DNA from: Marinoscillum furvescens DSM 4134
GTDB taxonomy: Bacteria > Bacteroidota > Bacteroidia > Cytophagales > Cyclobacteriaceae
Length of the DNA: 64,000 nt
Direction of reading: 5' to 3'
Assembly (NCBI RefSeq): GCF_003386095.1
Contig: NZ_QREG01000003.1
Coordinates: 1-64,000 of the forward strand
Positions 7,873 through 9,798 of this stretch are shown in pieces. The first letter of the stretch is position 1, and the number at the start of each line of letters is the position of its first letter. The notes below the pieces were generated by a model. That model did not search any database. It was not told the DNA's origin and was given only the letters and a program-made list of their open reading frames with translations. The translations under genes and the position numbers were made by a program.

Positions 7873-7912
7873 GTGTACGTTTTGAAATCGTTTGCAAGAA
7901 TTCGTTTTTACC

Positions 7913-7944
7913 TTGTGTCAAAGCTAAAAATTGTTTAACTTTTT
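7913..7944 (+). promoter_or_regulatory. Candidate promoter for the 63-residue gene
   Basis: TTG at 7913-7915 lies 20 bp before TAACTTTTT (7936-7944), close to the Bacteroidota pattern TTTG-N19-TAnnTTTG. The predicted start near 7951 gives a 65-nt leader. A competing AAAATTTG at 8003-8010 lies only 5 nt before the ATG. Confidence 0.35.
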
Positions 7945-8015
7945 GCTAATGACTTTTTCAAAGGAAAACGTCAAATTTACATTGTTAGTTAACCCTTTAA
8001 CAAAAATTTGCATTT

Positions 8016-8207
8016 ATGTTAGAGTACTTCAAAACCATCCTCTCGAAAGTGAGTTTTGATCGATGGCTGTTTGAAAAGGAGTTGAAAAAAGCAATAAACT
8101 CCTTAGTGCCCGATGAAATCTTAAATTTGAGAGACTGGTGCTATGAAAAATTTAGTCACATGTATGAGTCGATATTGGACAAGTGCTTCCCGCAAGCCTT
8201 GGTTTAA
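8016..8207 (+). CDS. Small protein of unknown function, 63 residues
   Basis: A short helical, cytoplasmic protein starting MLEYFKTILSKVSFDRWLFE. It has alternating charged and hydrophobic positions, two cysteines (43 and 58) and no signal peptide. I believe proteins of this look (a start like MLExFK...KVSFD, then LFEKELKKAI) recur in Cytophagales, but I cannot verify this. Reality is supported by the strong intrinsic terminator 8 bp after the stop codon and by its isolated position between divergent transcripts. No function can be assigned. Confidence 0.7.
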   Translation: MLEYFKTILSKVSFDRWLFEKELKKAINSLVPDEILNLRDWCYEKFSHMYESILDKCFPQALV

Positions 8208-8214
8208 GAGCCAG

Positions 8215-8241
8215 AAACCTCCACACCCCGGAGGTTTTTTT
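8215..8241 (+). terminator. Intrinsic terminator
   Basis: AAACCTCC (8215-8222) pairs perfectly with GGAGGTTT (8230-8237) around a 7-nt loop, followed by T continuing to 8241. It ends the transcript of the small gene just upstream. Confidence 0.9.
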
Positions 8242-8521
8242 ATGTCCGCTATGGTGCATTCGTTTTTTCTCAGATCAACCCAAAAACTCATGAATTAACA
8301 GGGATATTCGAAGATCGACCCGCCCTTTTCATGTTTTCCGAAATTGAAAAAATAATTAATCAATCGACAGTAAAACCCAAGCAGGACTTAACCCTAGCCT
8401 GTATACTTCATCTGGGATTAATGAAATCCAGGTAAAGTACAATTAGGATTATCATTTATCACTGTAAACCATTATTAGCATTAAGCAAAAACCTGTCAAG
8501 TAATTTTAGGACGGGTCCCCT

Positions 8522-9004
8522 GCCTGCCTCGCCGGCAGGCGGGCGTTCATATGGTGGACACCTGCGCTAAGACGGAAGATGCCTGCGTTCATATGGAAGG
8601 CAACCGCGTTGAGGCGGAAGGTAGTTGCATTCAAACGGGAGGTTTCTGCGTTCACTGGGTGGATACCTGCGTTCAGGCGGAAGATAGTTGCGCTGACAGG
8701 GAAGATAGCTGCGTTCAGACGGAAGACACCTGCGTTCACATGGTGGACACCTGCGCTAAGACGGAAGATACCTGCGTTCCTAGGGAAGGTAGTCGCGTTG
8801 AGGCGGAAGGTTTCTGCGTTCACCCGGAAGCTAGTTGCGTTAAGGTGGAAGGTTTCTGTGTTGAGAAAGTGGGAGCCTGCGTTCATTGGGTGAAAACCTG
8901 CGTTGAGGCGGAAGGTTTCTGCATGCCTCGCCAGCAGGCGGGCGTTGTAATGGGGGATTTCTGCGTTAAAGACAAAAATCGTTGCGTTCACCAGCAGGCG
9001 GCGC
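8522..9004. repeat. Tandem array, 23 units of exactly 21 bp
   Basis: From 8522 to 9004 the sequence divides into 23 units of exactly 21 bp with no insertion or deletion. The typical unit has GCGTT at positions 1-5, GGAAG at 11-15 and CT at 20-21, with the other positions variable. Units 1 and 20 (8522-8542, 8921-8941) are a different GC-rich type able to form a GCCTGCC/GGCAGGC hairpin, and the last unit (8984-9004) contains part of it. Units at 8543-8626 match those at 8732-8815, a 189-bp higher-order repeat. The array is open in several frames; the minus-strand frame reads as a heptad N-A-x-x-F-x-L. There is no ribosome binding site, signal peptide or plausible start, so I treat it as non-coding repeat DNA. 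Confidence 0.9.
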
Positions 9005-9101
9005 TCAGGTAGACGAAAGCTGATTATAGGTTAAAAATAGCTGCCTTTTGATCATCTGAATAATGTAGGAGCGAAAACATTCTAAGAGGCTCCTCTGCAG
9101 G

Positions 9102-9121
9102 GATCCAACTTCACTTGGATC
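9102..9121. repeat. Inverted repeat downstream of the MOSC gene
   Basis: GATCCAA (9102-9108) and TTGGATC (9115-9121) form a perfect 7-bp stem with a 6-nt loop. There is no T run on either side. It could protect the 3' end of the MOSC transcript or be a binding site. Confidence 0.35.
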
Positions 9122-9168
9122 AAGATCAACTGGTGCATTTTCTAAAGCAGTTCTTAAAAACGATTATT

Positions 9169-9798
9169 TCACAACAGCTGTTGCAGATGCTTTCGTGTAC
9201 TCTCTGCTAGTTTGGGCAAAGCAACCGCTCTTTCAATCTTTTGTTGGTCCTGTTCCTTTTTATAAATCATCTGAAACACATCCCAGATCGAAACATCACT
9301 ACCTTTTCTAACCAGGGTCATCTTATCACCAGCATGTACCTTCCCTTCTTTTATCACCCTGACATAAACGCCAGAGTGCCCATAGGCAATAAAGTCTTTG
9401 AGTACCTGCTGTGTCCCGAAACGAATACCGAGTTTGAAACAGGGCTGTCGGGGCTCTGAAACCTCCACTTCGGCCTCCCCGAGTTGGTAGACATCACCAA
9501 TACATACCTGATGTTCATCCAGGCCTTCTACGGTCAGGTTTTCACCAAACATACCCCAGTCCCAATCCAACGACGGGTACTTCTCTTTCCAAAAAGTATA
9601 AGTATCTGCCGAGTACAGATAGCAAGCTTTGTCTACTCCGCCATGATACTTTCTGTCCACCACTGCATCTCCTCGTACATCAGTAGTTTCCAGTGTCACA
9701 CCTGCTGACACCGGTTTTTTGAAAATGCCCGTTTCCACGGACTTTCCTTTCCACGCTACCGTTTGGCGCTCCCCTACATTAGTGGCTATTACTTCCAT
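9169..9798 (-). CDS. MOSC domain protein, YiiM-like
   Basis: This 209-residue protein has a MOSC domain over about residues 15-165 and a short helical C-terminal domain (about 170-209), the layout of the YiiM group. The conserved cysteine that carries sulfur or binds molybdenum cofactor in MOSC proteins is C120 in EPRQPCFKLG, and the usual RKYHGG (49-54), MFGENL and GHSGVY motifs are present. YiiM-type proteins reduce N-hydroxylated substrates with molybdenum cofactor, but no partner is visible here. Its ATG overlaps the stop of the PIN-PhoH gene as TGATG, so the two are translationally coupled. Confidence 0.85.
   Translation of the reverse strand: MEVIATNVGERQTVAWKGKSVETGIFKKPVSAGVTLETTDVRGDAVVDRKYHGGVDKACYLYSADTYTFWKEKYPSLDWDWGMFGENLTVEGLDEHQVCIGDVYQLGEAEVEVSEPRQPCFKLGIRFGTQQVLKDFIAYGHSGVYVRVIKEGKVHAGDKMTLVRKGSDVSIWDVFQMIYKKEQDQQKIERAVALPKLAESTRKHLQQLL

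Follow-up and report, generated by a model that had tools for sequence, protein, structure and literature searches.

Helically phased repeat arrays adjoining an IS3-like element end in the genome of Marinoscillum furvescens

Introduction

Tandem direct repeats placed about one or two helical turns apart are characteristic of plasmid iterons and ParR/parC-type sites, which are bound cooperatively on one face of the DNA, and such iterons and partition sites adjoin replication or partition genes on a replicon. For the chromosomal arrays described here, the closest known kind, and the nearest published system that was found, is the BrickBuilt minisatellite-MITE of Porphyromonas gingivalis; in the passages of its description considered here it has a 23-nt unit with 0–6% indels per element, a single consensus family, a leader and a tail, and IS5-like inverted ends (PMC4596501). 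The same passages describe MITE464/PgRS of P. gingivalis, which consists of 41-nt tandem repeats with IS5-like ends (PMC4596501), and excerpts from another study deal with insertion sequences targeting REP repeats, i.e., mobile elements for which dispersed intergenic repeats are preferred sites (PMC1525189). In the open-access literature that was searched, no description of arrays such as those reported below was found, and the passages considered from PMC6344855 held nothing relevant to them.

The array which forms the starting point of this work lies in a stretch of 64,000 nucleotides (referred to as the window; contig NZ_QREG01000003.1, positions 1 to 64,000) from Marinoscillum furvescens DSM 4134 (family Cyclobacteriaceae, order Cytophagales). 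The genome of this species (5.96 Mb in 62 contigs, denoted C below) is labelled G000 among the genomes that were compared.

Results

The 21-bp array in the window

The features of the window that are of importance here are as follows.

8016..8207, + strand: 63-aa ORF beside BatD, the left neighbour bounding the insertion; conserved in the same-genus genome G005, no Pfam match
8355..8519, + strand: dispersed mobile-element end of ~165 bp (the leader), ending in CCTGTCAAGTAATTTTAGGACGGG; recognized from its copies in the same genome
8522 to about 8544–8546, + strand: hairpin unit variant GCCTGCCTCGCCGGCAGGCGGGC at the left array edge, in the 21-bp register
8543..9010, + strand: 21-bp array of about 22 units; TRF, lag identity and profile fit
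8921..8943, + strand: second hairpin unit, with 2 mismatches, in the 21-bp register
9169..9798, − strand: MOSC-domain gene (Pfam), the right neighbour, outside the array

Within 8501–9030, the sequence is identical to itself at 0.53–0.57 of positions at lags of 21, 42, 63, 84, and 105, and at no more than 0.36 at all other lags from 5 to 109; at lags 10 and 11 the identity is 0.23, and the array is thus without a half-unit repeat. TRF applied to 8560–8841 gave a period of 21 with 0% indels. A cyclic profile fit resolves the array into 22.9 units, in which 29% of positions mismatch the family consensus (TGCGTTCAGGCGGAAGATAGC, of which TGCGTT and GG..G are the best-kept parts) and which contain at least 38 substitutions. 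In contrast to CRISPR-type spacing, the units abut, with one 21-bp period, graded conservation and no unique spacers. An earlier note on this DNA had reported 23 strictly phased units of exactly 21 bp, varying in sequence at about half of the positions and standing alone in a gene-free region. The array itself is real; two of its units, at 8526 and 8925, are GCCTGCCTCGCCGGCAGGCGGGC-like hairpin variants which remain in register. Loss of net phase is confined to the last ~1.5 units, past about 8990. The array does not stand alone in the genome, which contains a further seven members of its family, a remnant among them, as well as five families of different consensus, and the left flank (8355–8519) is itself a dispersed repeat. 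Arrays on C4, C14, and C2 likewise carry this hairpin unit close to their edges. Copies of GCCTGCCTCGCCGGCAGGCGGGC in the BLAST lists were mainly within arrays of the window family near their edges, with about three outside arrays, on C7, C45, and C32.

The neighborhood of the array was compared with that in related genomes. In G005 the order BatD, 63-aa ORF, MOSC, and PhoH is retained (the 63-aa ORF lying within ~430 aligned columns of 76% DNA identity), but the segment spanning element end and array is lacking, with 47 bp separating the small-ORF match from the MOSC match. From this comparison, the window locus reflects either insertion or loss. In G002, MOSC and PhoH adjoin each other and BatD falls outside the examined stretch; of these genes, that stretch contains PhoH alone in G001, G003, and G004. 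When array DNA was searched against 59 genomes (M. furvescens included), matches were limited to G000 itself and a 31-bp stretch in G010, and TRF detected no arrays in 399 kb of the same-genus genomes G005 and G001.

Other assignments of the locus were also considered. The neighbors BatD, MOSC, and PhoH include no rep or par gene as would be found beside plasmid iterons, and a plasmid or phage origin was rejected, as blastn with 8290–9010 gave no match in either collection. A known RNA was rejected as well: the one match listed for 7900–9300 and the three listed for leader loci L093, L097, L102, L107, L110, and L112 were all below the gathering scores of their families.

Other arrays in the genome

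Some two dozen arrays are scattered over the M. furvescens genome in all. Twenty-two of those analyzed have a 21-bp lag, and they form six consensus families. The window family (family 1) also includes C4:195k, C14:171k, C2:394k, C2:366k, C5:302k, C7:141k, and C20:10.8k, the last a four-unit remnant of weak periodicity (0.33). The consensus sequences of the other five families are CGGAAGCCTCCAACCAACGCA (5 arrays), TTGCACGGGTGTAAAAGTCAA (3), CATCCGCACCCGGCAATCATC (3), TTTGCA with a variable remainder (2), and one beginning CTAAAAGGTGCAA (1). Identity at lags of 21 to 147 is, for most of the 22, far above that at adjacent lags. All of them are intergenic by the ORF map, some having no called gene on one side in the examined stretch, and the orientation of the flanking genes showed no pattern. 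Block duplications are indicated by higher-order TRF periods of 105 bp in C4 (82% match) and 126 bp in C14 (85%) and C5 (90%). Beside the C5 array, a 115-bp tandem repeat of 5.1 copies (97% match) reaches the contig end (L056:5720-6309, i.e., C5:302719-303308). With the period unrestricted, TRF placed all five arrays detected in 864 kb of this genome at period 21; this set includes the window, C4, C27, and C20, where arrays had been found before, and C3:316k, also in the set, in truth alternates between 20 and 21.

Helical spacing and maintenance of phase

In five additional arrays, conserved anchors are 10, 20, 21, 31, or 41 bp apart. The AGCTAC anchors of C3:316k are spaced by 21, 20, 21, 20, 21, 21, 20, 21, and 20 bp, and in C13:9.7k, which was missed by TRF and by an initial motif filter, eight CCTGCG anchors follow one another at 20, 21, 21, 20, 21, 20, and 21 bp, directly beside an element end (L109), and there is little conservation outside the anchors. 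In C32 (1715–2087), C1:357k (357.2k), and C4:282k (282.6k) the anchors stand at mixed distances of 10, 20, 21, 31, and 41 bp. The pitch fitted to the five arrays is 10.29, 10.29, 10.34, 10.31, and 10.29 bp per turn, with a largest residual of 0.65 bp. As the last three arrays had surfaced through a pattern that looks for TGCGTT pairs spaced by 21 bp, and the choice of their anchors followed a reading of the sequence, a motif-free retest was made. The strongest lags in it were 41, 62, 82–83, and 20–21, with the same lags at C13:9.7k, and the identity at whole turns versus half turns was 0.36/0.26, 0.36/0.24, 0.38/0.27, and 0.38/0.22 in four arrays. With TGCRTT as the fixed anchor, no spacing in C32, C1, or C4:282k departs from whole turns by more than 0.07 turn. 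In C32, C4:282k, and C3:316k, the strongest short lag is 41 bp. The lengths in the sister arrays match the helix and not the codon. Of the two readings offered earlier for the constant unit length, helical phase gains support, both from the 21-bp lag that is common to unrelated families and from the coherence of five arrays at 10.29–10.34 bp per turn.

The 22 arrays with a 21-bp lag total 6,530 bp, in which there are 1,564 mismatches to the family consensus and at least 547 substitutions, this minimum being the number of distinct bases minus one in each column, summed. In bacteria, substitutions usually outnumber small indels about ten to one, and dozens of indels would hence be expected in these arrays. 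The net phase shift is 0 in 18 of the 22 arrays and 4, 1, 1, and −2 bp in the other four. There are 20 local breaks in the profile fit, and 14 of these constitute seven cancelling pairs at hairpin units (hand count). The indels reported by TRF at period 21, using its own consensus, are 6% in C4, 3% in C14, and 9% in C27:14.7k.

The conservation profile has its largest harmonic at 10.5 bp in four of the six families (permutation P = 0.011, 0.008, 0.030, and 0.022), and the mean power of this periodicity across the six was reached in none of 4000 permutations. Under a null which keeps 3-bp blocks the signal is weaker (P = 0.045, 0.039, 0.079, and 0.053; 0.57 and 0.23 in families 5 and 6), and it is low in five arrays of other genomes (0.22, 0.16, 0.08, 0.22, and 0.00).

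Linkage to a mobile-element end

The leader is present in 12 long copies in the genome, that of the window included, to which the other 11 show 82–95% identity; by eye, its homology may extend left to about 8295. Its terminal motif, GTCAAGTAATTTTAGGACGG, has 17 matches in the genome with at most one mismatch to a degenerate pattern. In 16 of the 17, or 15 of 16 loci when a doublet on C27 is counted as one, the motif (..GTCAAGTAATTTTAGGACGGGTCC) is followed by a phased array; 14 of these loci, including the window, have a 21-bp array and C13:9.7k has the CCTGCG-anchor array. The sole exception, on C46, lies at a contig end with 99 bp of sequence. Within each 21-bp family, the orientation of the array relative to the element end is constant (14/14 loci, by eye).

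Among 58 other genomes, the terminal motif was detected in G017, G024, and G025 alone, and the G017 match looks unrelated. In a scan of named genomes, 43 loci contained the degenerate motif, and 40 of these are titled as Cyclobacteriaceae. A 21-bp array was seen behind none of 44 motif sites in other species (three of which had <300 bp of outer flank), the top lag-21 identity being 0.35 in the first 400 bp. At three loci of Litoribacter populi (L203, L228, and L231), an ORF of 128 codons is followed by one of 308 codons, which ends 81 bp before a near-identical motif. At L231, the longer ORF matches the Pfam rve domain (integrase core), while the 128-aa ORF has no Pfam match. This order is the OrfA and OrfB layout of the IS3 family. 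With the L. populi OrfB as query, no copy was found in the M. furvescens assembly; contig ends C27 and C41 have DNA in common, by eye a possible OrfB tail, and the element of this genome is filed only as IS3-like.

No common sequence was seen by eye after the arrays, and the right flank in the window has a best other match of 20 bp and no long second copy. An offset scan flagged one family-3 pair with a common unit order (C27:74k and C15, z 2.8); C2:6.5k resembles C27:74k by eye and was not flagged. That the element end and the array move together is, from these data, weakly shown.

Two further observations concern the vicinity of element ends. Near a leader-array locus on C2 there are two ORFs for IS200-like Y1 transposases (L118:2436-3137 and L118:4065-4616), possibly REP-associated transposases. 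Among the other Cyclobacteriaceae, in Belliella (L192, L190, and L205), heptamer repeats of 7/14 bp are found just inside several copies of the element end.

Occurrence in other Cytophagales

Two pattern searches, each covering 390 genomes (M. furvescens included), were carried out. TTGCA-anchored 21-bp arrays, seemingly intergenic and each with its own consensus, were found in G385, G189, G138, G303, G331, and G268; because the searches require 21-bp spacing, these arrays do not by themselves mark 21 as special. The first search, which gave these arrays, had matches in 42 genomes, many of them resembling coiled-coil genes, against about 29 for a backwards control (by eye). The second had matches in 46 genomes, those in the 45 besides G000 being isolated one-mismatch matches, against about 47 for its control (by eye). 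TRF placed two of nine arrays in 400 kb of G331 at period 21, and one of two, with a coding-like unit, in 400 kb of G385. Dyad symmetry was significant in 4 of 11 profiles, namely family 6, G189, and G303 (P ≤ 0.002) and family 2 (P = 0.018); dyad operators were rejected as a general rule, since the window family lacks a dyad (P = 0.66). In G331, which belongs to another family of the order, a partly palindromic array on C22 (L320:720-971) has TGTATAC-like cores that are mostly 21–22 bp apart.

Coding potential of the arrays

The earlier note had also observed that the array is open in several frames, and had suggested selection for a reading phase with the minus-strand heptad N-A-x-x-F-x-L. 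The openness is confirmed, as the window array has one stop-free frame per strand and 2 to 15 stops in each of the remaining four, and it follows from a stop-free 21-bp consensus being equal to seven codons. The reading phase, in contrast, finds no support in the codon-position, stop, and lag tests. The proposed check for codon-position bias gave even conservation over the three positions in the window family (6.8/6.3/6.4); in families 2, 4, 5, and 6 the raw values are unequal (e.g., 9.7/7.8/10.0). Zero-stop frames in families 2, 3, 4, and 6 are expected from column shuffles (P = 0.15 to 1.0). Fewer stops than in shuffles were found in frame −2 of family 1, frame +0 of family 3, and frames +1 and −0 of family 5, and even so these frames contain 27, 8, 4, and 8 stops, respectively; raw slicing mis-phases C2:366k and C5 of family 1, for which the counts per array are not frame-true. 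The two long open frames of the window array have no Pfam match at the cut-off. For the window family, these results do not support a gene for a heptad-repeat protein. Units whose length is no multiple of 21, which had been named as evidence against the earlier proposals, do exist in the sister arrays, where they tell against coding but leave helical phasing intact.

Discussion

The linkage of the arrays to an element end and their helical phase are apparent from the genomic sequence. On balance, we are inclined to regard them as mobile-element-linked rows of candidate binding sites for a cooperative DNA-binding protein. Along each array a short anchor, which is TGCRTT for the window family and TTGCA, CCTGCG, or another sequence in the remaining ones, recurs at intervals of whole helical turns, in nearly all cases two (20–21 bp), and the putative protein would bind cooperatively along one face of the DNA, which would be the reason that the spacing is kept. 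An uncorrected indel of 1–2 bp would rotate all later sites out of line, whereas substitutions outside the anchor would be tolerated. The array may be carried by an IS3-type element or its short derivatives, or such an element may insert beside a bound array as a preferred target.

The main rival to this reading, to which we attach a clearly smaller but still appreciable likelihood, is that the arrays are selfish or neutral minisatellites linked to the element, with units duplicated beside element ends by a machinery that favors whole-turn steps, and with no present function. This agrees with the visible block duplications (periods of 105 bp in C4 and 126 bp in C14 and C5), with the lack of the window locus between conserved neighbors in G005 and of any array in the 399 kb covered from two genomes of the same genus, and with the comparable BrickBuilt of P. 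gingivalis, which is without proven function in the passages considered. However, a bias in duplication alone would leave later small indels in place, yet units of the window family hold their register at 22–38% mismatch, and hairpin units within the fitted arrays are in register in 7 of 8 cases (hand count). The constant pitch of C13:9.7k and C3:316k, where steps of 20 and 21 alternate (in an order that is weakly non-random for C3:316k, P = 0.042), also speaks against it, and the finding of the C13:9.7k array weakened the neutral explanation and strengthened that of binding rows.

Two other explanations were weighed. We think it improbable that the phased units act through intrinsic DNA shape, as a curved or flexible segment with no need for a sequence-specific protein: T-tracts repeated at 10 bp, a classic curvature signal, do occur in arrays of the C32 type, but the 21-bp families are very different in sequence, most have no phased A/T tracts by eye, and the conservation of a 5–6 bp anchor suggests that sequence is being read. 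Far less credible is that the array encodes a protein of seven-residue repeats, such as the minus-strand N-A-x-x-F-x-L. In keeping with such a protein, the window array has two open frames, of 161 and 153 codons, and codon positions are unequally conserved in some families, but codon-position bias is absent from the window family, none of the six frames is free of stops in the most diverged family, the lags of 41, 62, and 83 bp in sister arrays are no codon multiples, and neither open frame of the window has a Pfam match at the cut-off.

Extending the binding-row reading beyond this genome, we would tentatively propose, as a speculation for which the chances are rather low, that several Cytophagales genomes carry an undescribed class of chromosomal nucleoprotein scaffolds. 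These would be intergenic rows of helically phased anchors in many unrelated families with the two-turn pitch as their sole common trait, bound cooperatively on one face, with an anchor specificity that varies by family and a mobile element docking at the array edge. If the phasing is functional, the arrays would be DNA-binding platforms of a bacterial class that easily escapes notice, because the consensus varies from array to array and the pitch alone is conserved, and the insertion choice of the element would be tied to a phased protein array. The arrays also provide a natural test of whether selection or copying keeps the unit length of a minisatellite.

In comparison with the known systems, the arrays differ from iterons and parC in that about two dozen of them, of unrelated sequence families, lie between ordinary genes. 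REPs are palindromes, whereas these are phased direct repeats which have an element end at the array edge in a fixed orientation (PMC1525189, in the parts considered). The likeness to MITE464/PgRS, compared by period alone and from the passages considered, lies in the 41-nt period, as in C32, C4:282k, and C3:316k. BrickBuilt, as far as those passages describe it, is similar in being a multi-copy intergenic array of a Bacteroidota species, with short imperfect units, no spacers, and a conserved one-sided leader with an insertion-sequence-like end, in that some copies are leaderless, and in its limitation to a species group (PMC4596501). Its plan of an intergenic multi-copy array with a conserved leader is found at 15 of the 16 terminal-motif loci. 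Its 23-nt unit is not; the lag is 21 bp in the 22 arrays (weak in C20:10.8k). The M. furvescens arrays are further distinguished from BrickBuilt, on the same passages, by units of 21 bp, or of alternating 20 and 21 bp, which stay in register, by having no common tail that could be seen by eye, by their six or more unrelated families, and by an IS3-like terminal motif.
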